DNA of 64,000 nt from Methanosarcina barkeri 3 (lineage in GTDB: Archaea; Halobacteriota; Methanosarcinia; Methanosarcinales; Methanosarcinaceae). Positions 2,098 through 45,725 of the stretch are shown here, piece by piece (the first letter of the stretch is position 1; every line of letters starts with the position of its first letter). A model generated the notes under the pieces. It searched no databases. It was not told the origin of the DNA and saw only the letters and a list, made by a program, of their open reading frames with translations. The stretch covers positions 2,294,001 to 2,358,000 of the forward strand of contig NZ_CP009517.1 in assembly GCF_000970305.1 (NCBI RefSeq), given 5' to 3'. Position numbers and translations under genes: made by a program.

Positions 2098-4997
<2,900 letters not shown>

Positions 4998-40391: not shown

Positions 40392-40561
40392 AAAGAAAGC
40401 TCACAACAAGAGAAATAGTCCCCAGACAGAACATTTCCCAGATAGGGTTTTCAATACGAAACGATAATATATTTTTTGGAATATAATGAATTTAAGGAAA
40501 GGCAGCAGGCAGAATTGTTGTCAGTACCCTTCCGGTTTCTCTTACTTTGGGGGTAAGAACA

Positions 40562-40789
40562 ATGGCAGAAATGGAAATTGATGTTAGAGGGCAGACCTGC
40601 CCTGTTCCTCTGGTAGAATGCAGAAAAGCCTTAAAGAAAGCCTCTCCAGGGGATCTTGTTATTGTGAAGGGAACACATCCGGCATCAAGAAAAGAGATTC
40701 CTATGGCCTGCGAAGCAATGGGTCTCACAGTACTGGAAATTGAAGATAAAGAAGGAGGTAAAGAGTGGGAGATTAAGATCCGGAGATAA
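40562..40789 (+). CDS. TusA/SirA-like sulfur carrier protein
   Basis: TusA-family proteins carry a persulfide on a conserved cysteine. The protein of 75 residues has the hallmark GQTCPVPLVECRKAL with the Cys-Pro-x-Pro site, then the beta-alpha-beta pattern of the fold ending in EWEIKIRR. The ATG at 40562 has GGGGGTAA upstream and is preferred over a TTG at 40547. It precedes a DsrE-like gene by about 20 bases and an IscS/IscU pair by 600 bases, which suggests sulfur transfer in Fe-S or tRNA thiolation. Confidence 0.92.
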   Translation: MAEMEIDVRGQTCPVPLVECRKALKKASPGDLVIVKGTHPASRKEIPMACEAMGLTVLEIEDKEGGKEWEIKIRR

Positions 40790-40809: not shown

Positions 40810-41229
40810 ATGGGGGAAAAGACTGTCATTATCCTGCATAGCGGAGACATGGATAAGGTATACAGCGCACTTATAATTGCAAACGGAGCTCTTGCAATGG
40901 GTATGGAAGCCTCCATATATTTTACTTTCTGGGGGTTAATGCGCTTGAAGAAAGGAGAGCTTGAGAAGGGGCCACTCTCCAAGATGAATATGCTAGGGCT
41001 TGGCAGGCAGATGATCAAACAAAGAATGAATAAAGCCAATGTTGCTTCACTTGAAAGGCTGATGAATGATTTCAAGGAACTTGGCGGAAAAATAATCGCC
41101 TGCGAGATGACCATGGAAATTATGGGCTTGAGTAAAGAGGAGCTTCGCACAGAGTGGATAGATGAATGGGGAGCTGTAGGTTCGTATATTCAGGAAGCTC
41201 GGGACGCAAACGTAACTCTCTTTATTTGA
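40810..41229 (+). CDS. DsrE/DsrF-like protein
   Basis: A 139-residue protein of the DsrE-like fold. It opens with a beta strand and loop (VIILHSGDMDKVYSALIIANGA) and carries the FTFWGLMRLKKGEL turn seen in the DsrE/peroxiredoxin-like family that pairs with TusA. A single cysteine at about residue 98 (KIIACEMTMEIMG) is in the position used for sulfur transfer by relatives. It is downstream of the TusA-like gene with a GGAAGGGG site. Together they look like a sulfur relay module. Confidence 0.85.
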   Translation: MGEKTVIILHSGDMDKVYSALIIANGALAMGMEASIYFTFWGLMRLKKGELEKGPLSKMNMLGLGRQMIKQRMNKANVASLERLMNDFKELGGKIIACEMTMEIMGLSKEELRTEWIDEWGAVGSYIQEARDANVTLFI

Positions 41230-41423: not shown

Positions 41424-42620
41424 TTGATTATTTCAAACGGGGAGGGAGAAGAAATATTCGAGAATATAATATATCTTGACAATGCCGCATGCACACGATT
41501 GGATGAGCGGGTACTTGAAGTAATGAAACCTTATTTTTTTAATATCTATGCAGTTGCAACATCGGAATTTGGCTATTCTATGGGTATTGAAGCAAAAGAA
41601 GCACTTGCAAGATCCCGAGAAAGCATAGCTTCAAAGCTTGATGCAAATTCAGAAGAGATTATCTTCACTTCAGGGTCCACTGAATCAAGCAACACTGCGC
41701 TTAAAGGCGTTGCCATGGCTCTTAAAGAGAAGAAAGGAAAACATGTTGTTGCCTCGAAGATAGAAGATTTTCCTGTGCTTAATACAGCAAAAGTTCTCGA
41801 AGGACAGGGTTTTAGTGCGACTTTCCTGGATGTCGATCCTGAAGGGTTTGTGGATCTCGAAGAACTTAAAAACGCTATAACAAAGGAAACTGTTCTTGTT
41901 TCAATTCAACAGGGAAACCAGGAAATAGGGACAGTACAGGATTTGAAAGCTATCTCGGAAATATGTGAAGAAAAGGATGTGCTCCTGCACACGGATGCTA
42001 CTCATAGCTTTACTCGGCTACCTCTCAATGTAAAGGAATTGCCTGTGGACCTGATCACTATGTCAGCCCATACCATCCACGGTCCAAGAGGAATAGGTGC
42101 TCTTTACATCAGGAAAGGTACCCCAATAACCAAATTTATGGATGGAGGTTTCCAGGAATTTAACCTGAGGGCAGGAGTGGAAAATATTCCATCAGCCGTT
42201 GGTTTTGCAAAAGCTGTAGAACTCGTAACCGAAGAGGAAAACAAAAGGCTCAAAGCAATGAGAGATCGCATAATCGATAAAGCACTCTCTGAGATTCCGG
42301 AAGTTACCCTCAACGGGAGTCGGGAAAAACGTCTACCTCAGAATGCAAACCTGACTTTTCACTATGTAGAAGGCGAATCCGTAACTTTGCACATGGATAT
42401 GAGAGGTTTTGCAGTAAGTACGGGTTCAGCCTGTTTCAGTCGTTCCCTTGAAGCTAGCCATGTAATCAGGGGTATAGGAGGAGATCACGAAAGAGCTCAT
42501 GGCTCAGTACGCTTTACCTTCGGGCGCTATAATCATATTGAGGATACCGATGCAGCAATTGAAGCGATGAGCGAAATCGTGGCAAGGCTCAGGGAAATAA
42601 GCCCTCTTGCAAGGAAATGA
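41424..42620 (+). CDS. IscS/NifS-like protein lacking PLP-binding residues
   Basis: A homologue of cysteine desulfurase, 398 residues if it starts at the TTG. Family landmarks are YLDNAACTRLDE, FTSGSTESSNTALKG, LLHTDATH and the cysteine loop GSACFSRSLEASHVIRG (C337). The lysine that holds PLP is replaced: the usual SAHKIHGPKG reads SAHTIHGPRG (T217). The histidine that stacks on PLP is Asp (EDFPV, D115), and the Gln after the Asp is His (DATH). It probably cannot bind PLP, as reported for the Archaeoglobus homologue that serves as a cysteine ligand partner of IscU. A strong GGGAGGGAG site lies before an ATA at 41454, so the start is uncertain. The IscU gene follows. Confidence 0.88.
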   Translation: MIISNGEGEEIFENIIYLDNAACTRLDERVLEVMKPYFFNIYAVATSEFGYSMGIEAKEALARSRESIASKLDANSEEIIFTSGSTESSNTALKGVAMALKEKKGKHVVASKIEDFPVLNTAKVLEGQGFSATFLDVDPEGFVDLEELKNAITKETVLVSIQQGNQEIGTVQDLKAISEICEEKDVLLHTDATHSFTRLPLNVKELPVDLITMSAHTIHGPRGIGALYIRKGTPITKFMDGGFQEFNLRAGVENIPSAVGFAKAVELVTEEENKRLKAMRDRIIDKALSEIPEVTLNGSREKRLPQNANLTFHYVEGESVTLHMDMRGFAVSTGSACFSRSLEASHVIRGIGGDHERAHGSVRFTFGRYNHIEDTDAAIEAMSEIVARLREISPLARK

Positions 42621-42664: not shown

Positions 42665-42736
42665 ATTTTAGACGATTTAGTCATTTTAAACGGTTTAATC
42701 ATTTTAAACGGTTTAGTCATTTTAGACAATTTAAGC
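42665..42736. repeat. Four tandem copies of an 18-bp unit
   Basis: Units start at 42665, 42683, 42701 and 42719 with the pattern attttaaacggtttagtc; a fifth is decayed. The array lies between the IscS-like and IscU genes. Confidence 0.85.
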
Positions 42737-42784
42737 ATTCTAAACAAAGAAATAGAATATTAGAGAGAAAGAGAGAGTGAGATA

Positions 42785-43420
42785 ATGAAGTTTCCTTACA
42801 GTCAAAAAGTGCTGGAGCATTTTAAGAACCCGCACAATGTCGGGCAGATCGAAAATCCTGACGGAAAAGGCCTCGAAGGAAGCCCGGCTTGCGGAGACAT
42901 GGTAGCGGTTTACATTAAGGTCAACCCAGACACCAAGGTTATTGAGGATATAAAATTCGAATCTTACGGCTGTGCATCAAATATTGCTACTGCTTCGATT
43001 ATAACAGATCTTGCACGTGGAAAAACTCTCGATGAAGCAAAGAAAATAACATGGAAACAGGCTTCGGAAGAACTTGGGGGACTTCCTCCGATTAAAGCCC
43101 ACTGCTCAGTACTTGCAGTTGAGGGCCTGCGGGCTGCAATCAGAGATTATGAGGAAAAACACGGGCTTATAACCGAGAAAGAGCCTACTACCGAAGAGGT
43201 TATCAGAAGCAGGTTAAAACACGTTATGAACCCTCTGACCGGTCTTGACATAATTCGTACAAACCTGATCCTGAAAACGAGCATTGAAAATGGAGTTGTG
43301 AGGGTAGTTGTAGACCTGCCTGCAAACCATCAGTTTGCTCCAGCAATAAAAGAGGATATTATGGAAAAACTGGGATCTTTGTGGGATGTCGAAAGGGTTG
43401 ATGTAATATTTACAGCCTGA
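42785..43420 (+). CDS. iscU: IscU scaffold fused to a MIP18/DUF59-like domain
   Basis: IscU builds Fe-S clusters. Residues 1-130 are a standard IscU: SPACGD (C36, D38), GCAS (C63) and HCSVLA (C107) are the cluster ligands. The remainder (about 145-211) resembles the DUF59/MIP18 or SufT-type domain, with the pattern VMNPLTGLDIIRTNLIL and VRVVVDLP, a domain linked to cluster delivery. The fusion makes a protein of 211 residues, longer than plain IscU. It follows the IscS-like gene, and the C337 of that protein could complete a cluster on this scaffold. Confidence 0.92.
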   Translation: MKFPYSQKVLEHFKNPHNVGQIENPDGKGLEGSPACGDMVAVYIKVNPDTKVIEDIKFESYGCASNIATASIITDLARGKTLDEAKKITWKQASEELGGLPPIKAHCSVLAVEGLRAAIRDYEEKHGLITEKEPTTEEVIRSRLKHVMNPLTGLDIIRTNLILKTSIENGVVRVVVDLPANHQFAPAIKEDIMEKLGSLWDVERVDVIFTA

Positions 43421-43480
43421 ATCTTATATTTAAAGCCCGAATCTTATATTTAAAGCCCGAATCTTATATTTACAGCCTGG
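43401..43480. repeat. 20-bp tandem repeat grown out of the IscU gene end
   Basis: Four units start at 43401, 43421, 43441 and 43461. The first is the coding end itself, including the TGA stop; the next two are identical to each other, and the last resembles the first. The order suggests slippage duplication of the gene's 3' end. Confidence 0.85.
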
Positions 43481-43580: not shown

Positions 43581-45725
43581 TCAAGCTGGAACCTGTTCCT
43601 TATTCTCTCTGTTCCAATGTCGGTGGTTTGCAATCGCAGTAGTGAAGGATTTGCTAAAAGAACTCCGATCTCCTTTACTAACATCAGTCACGACACCTTT
43701 ATCGGAAATTAATGGAATATCTTTGTCAGCCGACTCTTGCCCTGCAAATTGTATATCGGGAAGGTTTGCAGCTTTGAGTAACTCAACTCCCTCACCGGTT
43801 GCTCCCAGAGGCTTGCAATGCCTGAATGCTTCATTAACGAAATGTATAGCATCTCCCTGCATCTTCAGAGTCTCTACATTCTCTTTTCCTCCAGGAATGT
43901 ATACGGCATCATACAATACCGACGCTGTGGTGACATAGCTTTTATCAACCTCGAGTTCCTCCCCGCTTGAACTCTTTAACATTCCCTGGTGTTTAGAGAT
44001 AATATAGGCTTTTGCTCCGCCAGCCTCTAAAGCCTGCATTACCTCACTGACATCTTTATGATCATATCCATCTGCAACAAGGATAGCAACTTTTCTGGTT
44101 TTAATAGTGTTCTTCACGGTGTGTTCCGAACGCTCCTGGCTTACGTTCGGAGATTCTTTCGTGACCGATGACCCTCCTTTCTGATCGGGGGCAGGGACAC
44201 CTATTCCTTTTGCGATCTCGATTGCAAGATCTCCGTCTACATTATTGAACATATCAACAATTGCTTTTCGTATACTCTTATCCTCTACTTTCCCTATTTC
44301 AAAATGGAATGCGTCTATGATATGTTTCTTTTCAGGCTCCGACATACTATTCCAGAACAATTTGGCCTGACTGTAAAAGTCTTTGAACTTCTCACTGCGA
44401 GCACGGATCTTTCTACCCTCTACTTTTTCCATATAATGGACATATCCGCCTTCTTTGGCGGAGGCCGGCCGTGGAAGGTTTTCCCCTACCGTATTAGGGA
44501 AATAGCTTGTCTTACCTTTGTTTATCGTTGTGCGGTGATATCCTTCCCTCTGATTATTGGCTATTGGTGCCAGTGGCCGGTTGATTGGAATTTCCTGGAA
44601 ATTCGGGCCTCCCAGGCGGATCAGTTGAGTGTCGAGATATGAGAAAAGGCGTCCCTGAAGAAGCGGGTCGTTGGAGAAATCGATCCCAGGAACCACATTT
44701 GCCGGACAGAACGCAACCTGCTCGGTTTCAGCAAAGAAATTGTCCGGGTTACGGTTAAGGGTCATCTTCCCTATCCATTTAATGGGTACATCCTCTTCAG
44801 GCCAGATTTTGGTGGGATCAAGAATATCAAAGTCAAATTTAAACTCATCCTCTTCCTCCAGAATCTGTACTCCAAACTCATACTCCGGATAGTCCCCCAT
44901 CTCAATTGCTTCCCAGAGGTCTCGCCGGTTAAAGTCGGGATCTTTTCCTGCTATCTTCTGAGTCTCATCCCAGACAAGCGAGTGAATGCCAAGCAGAGGT
45001 CTCCAGTGAAACTTTATAAATCTTCCCTTGCCTTCTGCATTAATAAAACGGAAGGTATTAACCCCAAAGCCCTGCATCATCCGGTAACTCCTGGGGAGTG
45101 CACGATCTGAAAGCACCCACATAATCATGTGCGCATTTTCGGGATGGCAGGCAACGAAATCCCAGAATGTATCATGGGCTGCAGAAGCTTGAGGCATCTG
45201 GTTGTCCTGTTCAGGTTTAATTGCATGAACAAGATCAGGGAACTTGATTGCATCTTGAATAAAGAAAACAGGAATGTTATTGCCGACAAGATCATAATTT
45301 CCGTCTTCAGTGTAGAACTTTGTTGCAAAACCCCGAACGTCTCTTACAGTATCAGCCGAGCCTCTGAAACCTACAACAGTAGAGAATCGCACGAAGACAG
45401 GTGTCTTCTTGTTGGGGTCCTGCAGAAATTTCGCACTCGTGTACTCTATCATAGGCTCATAAACCTGGAAATACCCATATGCTCCAGATCCCCTGGCATG
45501 AACAACCCTTTCCGGAATTCGTTCATGGTCAAAATGAGTTAATTTTTCCCTGAAGTGAAAGTCTTCAAGTAGGGTTGGCCCCCTTTCCCCTGCCTTGAGT
45601 GAAATATCAGTGTTACTGACCTTAACGCCCTGATTTGTAGTCAGAAACTCACGCTCAGGATCTTCTCGAATTGTTTCCAATTGTTCGTCTTTGCTTTTCT
45701 CATCGACCATTCTCTTTTTTTCCAC
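43581..45725 (-). CDS. katE: Large-subunit catalase (KatE/HPII type)
   Basis: Breaks down hydrogen peroxide. The 714-residue protein has the catalase core with distal-site [29 protein letters not shown] and heme-binding [18 protein letters not shown] with the axial tyrosine. After residue 540 comes a class I glutamine-amidotransferase-like domain ([27 protein letters not shown]), as in HPII. Large catalases are mostly bacterial, and their presence in some Methanosarcina is thought to come from transfer. The start is a GTG at 45725 with AAGGTG in front, or ATG 45710. No partner genes. Confidence 0.95.

Follow-up and report, generated by a model that had tools for sequence, protein, structure and literature searches.

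The window analysed here, a 64,000-nucleotide stretch of the Methanosarcina barkeri 3 genome, encodes an IscS homologue that lacks the PLP lysine (iscS*, 41424-42620 on the + strand; 398 aa from a TTG codon, the numbering used below), and an IscU adjoins it just downstream (42785-43420, + strand). What does such an IscS do beside an IscU, and where does the sulfur of the cluster come from? A preliminary description of the locus had proposed that the protein acts like Archaeoglobus fulgidus IscS together with the adjacent IscU, and that sulfur is supplied from elsewhere. Sequence and gene context support the parts concerning a dead IscS, its IscU and an outside source of sulfur. The likeness to A. 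fulgidus IscS has to be qualified, as the two proteins differ in their substitutions and belong to clades that are placed apart; one common origin is, even so, not rejected. The genome is complete (4.56-Mb), and the nearest named relative for the iscS* protein is Methanosarcina spelaei (97% identity).

Translation and alignment, both with IscS chains of solved structure and with the genome's own three canonical IscS, put Thr217 (ACC, 42072-42074, + strand) where the PLP lysine would be, Asp115 in place of the PLP-stacking histidine and His194, three residues past the conserved Asp191, in place of the glutamine, in agreement with the preliminary description. Cys337 (TGT, 42432-42434, + strand), the cysteine of the persulfide loop, is retained in the motif STGSACFS and conserved in the compared IscS, as had also been read. 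The iscS* protein thus resembles canonical IscS/NifS in sequence family, Cys loop and IscU partner, but differs from them in lacking the PLP lysine, the stacking His and the Gln. Thr86, Asn165 and Asp191 of the PLP site are still present. Asp115, His194 and Cys337 are invariant in 38/38 window-type sequences of the neighbour survey described below, and H219 is a further invariant pocket residue alongside D115 and H194; the lysine position reads Thr in 34 of the 38, Leu in 3 and Met in 1. Cys181 (codon 41964-41966) is also invariant in all 38, and is found in only 2/44 canonical IscS.

The protein belongs to the class V aminotransferase fold family (PF00266, 228 bits), and its closest solved structure is A. 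fulgidus IscS-IscU (329 bits; PDB 4EB5, 4EB7, 4HVK). It scores below the cut-off of every curated NCBIfam desulfurase model, the best being TIGR03402 with 435.5 bits vs 530.75. The dN/dS values of iscS* against Methanosarcina orthologs are 0.05-0.11, and those of tusA, dsrE2 and iscU are about 0.12 or below, so that the iscS* clade is under strong purifying selection. A pseudogene in decay was rejected on these values and because the gene is intact in many genomes; a sequencing error was rejected because identical residues occur in dozens of independent genomes. From the residues in the PLP site we infer that iscS* has lost PLP binding and, with it, probably desulfurase activity. That D115, H194 and H219 form a metal site is speculation. 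An AlphaFold2 model built on a 15-sequence alignment had a mean pLDDT of 60, falling under 50 in the Cys loop, and was set aside.

The iscS* gene is the third of an operon with the order tusA-dsrE2-iscS*-iscU. The first gene (40547-40789, + strand) encodes an 80-aa TusA sulfurtransferase/sulfur carrier (PF01206, 73.7 bits) with Cys18 in a CPxP motif; PF01206 matches no other gene of the genome. The second (40810-41229, + strand) encodes a 139-aa DsrE2-like sulfur carrier (PF13686, 130 bits) with the conserved Cys98; its score against the NCBIfam model for DsrE2, NF047629, is under the cut-off. The 211-aa product of iscU consists of a NifU_N scaffold (PF01592, 144 bits), with Cys36, Asp38, Cys63, His106 and Cys107, and a C-terminal PF01883 domain (52 bits). 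This MIP18/SufT-like domain is encoded at 43193-43405. Elsewhere the genome encodes the three canonical IscS (L002-L004), each of which keeps the His, Gln and Lys and is adjoined by an IscU, and a SufS-like protein.

The core inference, a dead IscS working with IscU in the manner of A. fulgidus, is already published (Deere et al. 2020, PMC7585200). That paper describes M. acetivorans IscS1 (MA0808) with IscU1 (MA0807, 24.2 kDa), states that the lysine is missing in IscS1 and proposes a function like that of A. fulgidus IscS. It also states that IscS1 formed inclusion bodies in E. coli, that the gene arrangement is common to Methanosarcina, and that four genes clustered with iscS1/iscU1 are of unknown function. 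On the residues given there, IscS1 is the evident ortholog of the window protein, with an identical STGSACFS loop, and the ligand spacing of the IscU proteins matches (C45/D47/C72/C116 in IscU1, C36/D38/C63/C107 in the window). The accessible part of the paper mentions neither TusA/DsrE2 nor the His and Gln changes, and it says nothing of relatives in bacteria or of the start codon (PMC7585200). We found no paper linking TusA/DsrE to a Lys-less IscS in the openly readable literature, a body that excludes the A. fulgidus originals. What is new here is the genomic rule that ties degraded PLP sites to TusA/DsrE neighbours.

According to PMC7585200, which cites Marinoni 2012, Pagnier 2014 and Yamanaka 2013, A. 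fulgidus IscS lacks the PLP lysine and has no desulfurase activity, and IscS-IscU was crystallised with a cluster. The iscS* protein and A. fulgidus IscS have in common that the PLP lysine is replaced, the loop Cys is kept and iscU is adjacent. However, the pockets differ. The A. fulgidus-type keeps the His, has Ala for Gln and Asp for Lys, and carries an SSND motif, whereas the window-type reads Asp/His/Thr; His115 and Ala194 are present in 40/40 sequences of the former type, Asp and His in 38/38 of the latter. In PDB 4R5F, A. fulgidus IscS has a Lys at the Asp position. Unlike the window IscU, A. fulgidus IscU has no PF01883 fusion. Both IscS of A. fulgidus are Lys-less, and its one further PF00266 gene is aminotransferase-like, which leaves it without a canonical class V desulfurase; the sulfur of A. 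fulgidus must therefore come from elsewhere.

We surveyed ~9-kb regions holding IscS genes; most came from the archaeal phylum, and Chloroflexota and Spirochaetota were added. Carriers were found with HMMs built on the TusA and DsrE2 of the window, and IscS were classed by their PLP-site residues. The degraded set comprised 85 IscS (40 of A. fulgidus-type, 38 of window-type and 7 of a Spirochaetota sister group) and the canonical set 44, mostly archaeal. His and Gln are present in 44/44 of the canonical sequences, a set chosen on these residues. A TusA and/or DsrE2 gene on the same strand within 3 kb was found for 76/85 degraded IscS vs 0/44 canonical ones (Fisher p 7e-26, a statistic that ignores relatedness). 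For two of the 44 canonical IscS (L148, L222) carriers do lie within 3 kb, on the other strand, and these belong to neighbouring degraded IscS. Pfam confirms such carriers next to IscS in A. fulgidus as well: one of its two loci has DsrE immediately 5' of iscS, and the other has TusA-DsrE. For the second locus, in L140, the DsrE frame starts at 3704 and its end lies 9 bases ahead of iscS. The operon copies of the carriers conserve their thiols, Cys18 in 71/71 TusA and Cys98 in 64/64 DsrE2. The loop Cys is present in all IscS of both sets (85/85 degraded, 44/44 canonical), and the IscU ligands are conserved throughout the degraded groups, alignment gaps aside. The fusion of IscU with PF01883 was found only at window-type and sister-group loci, and beside none of the canonical or A. 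fulgidus-type IscS in the survey.

Nine of the 85 degraded IscS have no adjacent carriers. Four of them (L233-L236) are from one genus, and all four genomes have a TusA-DsrE2 pair elsewhere, ~110-150 kb off where it is on the same contig. The genome of L163 has such a pair ~4 kb away, and those of L062 and L232 encode TusA and DsrE2 domains inside one fused protein of 825-846 aa. L048 lies near a contig end, and no TusA-DsrE2 was found in the partial genome of L063. Such fusions of TusA and DsrE2 domains lie at G452:C111:10717-11424 and G590:C12:78078-78788, in Chloroflexota genomes whose Lys-less IscS lack adjacent carriers. Other neighbours at the bacterial loci include DUF362, methyltransferase, permease and proline dehydrogenase genes, and none recurs among the ten proteins scanned. 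The seven Spirochaetota sister-group loci (L220-L226) have TusA-DsrE2 operons; the Lys is kept in four of them and replaced by Leu or Met in three, and the Gln is lost in all seven, the Lys-bearing four reading Tyr, Ala or Ile there. The sister group is apparently an intermediate state. At L226 a PF00266 gene upstream in the operon was considered as a canonical desulfurase and rejected, as it is a phosphoserine transaminase.

The groups had been set by residues before tree building, and those residues were excluded from the tree. The tree sets the window-type, the sister group and the sequence L191 apart from the canonical and A. fulgidus-type IscS with support of 100/97, and puts the A. fulgidus-type inside the canonical set. 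The AU test does not reject a tree in which all degraded IscS form one clade (p 0.174), and the IscU tree is no more decisive (p 0.145). Since the IscS and IscU trees fit one or two origins, the association with TusA/DsrE amounts to one or two independent contrasts. Orthologs of window-type iscS* (about 70-97% identity) are present in most Methanosarcinaceae examined, and remoter members (61-70%) in some Chloroflexota and Spirochaetota. A distribution limited to Methanosarcina was rejected on account of these bacterial relatives, two of which (L229, L230) sit on contigs above 2 Mb, which makes contamination unlikely for them.

The TusA-DsrE2 pair just upstream, which the preliminary description had missed, is most likely the answer to where "elsewhere" lies, and such carriers also accompany A. 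fulgidus IscS. We put about even weight on a model in which IscS* has no desulfurase activity and works for IscU as a docking partner and persulfide relay (or cysteine ligand), receiving sulfane sulfur via TusA/DsrE2. Sulfide or another inorganic donor would be the ultimate source, and DsrE2 and TusA would each carry sulfane sulfur as a persulfide on their one conserved cysteine. IscS* would keep the IscS dimer platform and the mobile Cys loop and would make no sulfur from cysteine. TusA and IscU may both dock on IscS*, and Cys337 would then hand the persulfide to IscU, or serve as a cluster ligand, with the cluster built on IscU. Sulfur would flow in the direction opposite to that in E. coli, from TusA to IscS. 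At the sequence level the model agrees with the fixed PLP-site changes, the retained thiol cysteines, the operon linkage and the purifying selection. As the thiols are conserved and the two clades have different residues in the pocket, the part they share is the thiol chain and not the pocket. Single steps have precedents: sulfide alone can persulfurate DsrE (PMC3397948), and in E. coli TusA receives sulfur from IscS, so that the docking partnership exists (PMC9769115). A comparable set of carriers is the dsrE3A-dsrE2B-tusA cluster of Metallosphaera cuprina, which like the window combines TusA and DsrE proteins with conserved thiols in one cluster; the carriers of M. cuprina are tied to a heterodisulfide-reductase-like sulfur-oxidation complex, whereas those of the window are tied to IscS* and IscU (PMC4175335). 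The presence of three canonical IscS and a SufS-like protein counts against a relay, as cysteine sulfur is available in the cell. Given TusA-DsrE2, a persulfide relay is no less likely than a role as cysteine ligand alone.

The main rival, a pure scaffold model that goes back to the preliminary description and to PMC7585200, holds that IscS* provides only Cys337 as a ligand, and a docking surface, to a cluster on IscU; free sulfide would be the source, and TusA-DsrE2 would serve another sulfur pathway and be merely co-regulated. It has on its side the structure and the activity claims published for Lys-less A. fulgidus IscS, as cited in PMC7585200, together with the conserved loop Cys and IscU ligands. 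The one genus in which TusA-DsrE2 lie apart from iscS* also fits it. So do TusA and DsrE/SirA proteins in Methanococcus voltae, a methanogen reported without a SufS-type desulfurase (PMC9431491); the control genome of M. jannaschii has them too, and from such methanogens it follows that the carriers have roles without IscS*. What this scaffold model leaves unexplained is the restriction of TusA/DsrE to degraded IscS, A. fulgidus included, and we regard it as rather unlikely. An enzyme that persists in altered form, with PLP bound non-covalently or with another ligand or metal in a pocket remodelled around D115, D191, H194 and H219 and with different sulfur chemistry, appears improbable. The remaining Thr86, Asn165 and Asp191 would suit it, as would D115, H194 and H219, which are invariant rather than drifting, and a figure legend for 4EB5 in PMC9769115 that shows PLP in A. 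fulgidus IscS. However, the Lys-less clades fill the pocket differently (D/H/T vs H/A/D) and share only the Cys loop and the partners, and the lysine position drifts to Leu or Met in bacteria. Finally, a dead paralogue might regulate canonical IscS by heterodimerising with it or competing against it. The three canonical IscS in the genome would provide the targets, and the probable AUA start of iscS* described below suggests low or regulated translation; but iscS* shares its operon with a dedicated IscU, and in A. fulgidus the Lys-less type occurs without any canonical partner. This regulatory role is thus very improbable.

More tentatively than for the window protein itself, we propose that the relay may represent a cysteine-independent ISC branch of archaea and some bacteria, A. 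fulgidus included, in which TusA/DsrE2 charge IscU via a dead IscS. The sulfur supply of A. fulgidus IscS-IscU is left open in the accessible literature, and the survey suggests a testable answer: it is IscS with a dead PLP site, and not the working copies, that is encoded beside TusA and DsrE. If the relay is true, ISC Fe-S assembly need not begin with cysteine, which would suit anaerobes that live on sulfide, and the direction given in textbooks, from IscS to TusA, would be reversed.

A second, independent observation open to experiment is the conserved probable AUA start of iscS*. The TTG at 41424, the start taken by the ORF tool, lacks both a ribosome-binding site and conservation among relatives. 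Codon 11 (41454-41456, + strand) is ATA in 28/28 sequences of Methanosarcina and its sister genus, preceded by a conserved G-rich, Shine-Dalgarno-like element, which in the window reads GGGGAGGGA (41438-41446, + strand) and ends ~7 bases 5' of the ATA. At the same position 20/21 other relatives have ATG or GTG. In several sequences (e.g. L014, L015, L034, L012, L013) no ATG, GTG or TTG occurs from the last stop to the conserved YLDN motif, and in L015 a TAA stands directly before the ATA. All 13 conserved Ile columns of iscS* vary synonymously, and an ordinary Ile codon therefore does not account for the invariant ATA. Judged from this conservation, translation probably initiates at the AUA at 41454 and not at the TTG at 41424, which would give a protein of 388 aa. 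Residue numbers would drop by 10, to T207, D105, H184 and C327. These are close to K206, H104 and Q183, which we take to be the corresponding residues of E. coli IscS. The cysteine of E. coli IscS is Cys328 (PMC9769115). Some Methanosarcina have an ATG four codons after the ATA, and residue numbering suggests that this ATG is the annotated start in M. acetivorans.

Short tandem repeats with units of 18/36 bp and 20 bp were observed at 42665-42745, in the gap between iscS* and iscU, and at 43406-43477, where iscU ends. The - strand at 43581-45725, convergent with iscU, encodes a long catalase with a C-terminal DJ-1/PfpI-like domain, in a methanogen.
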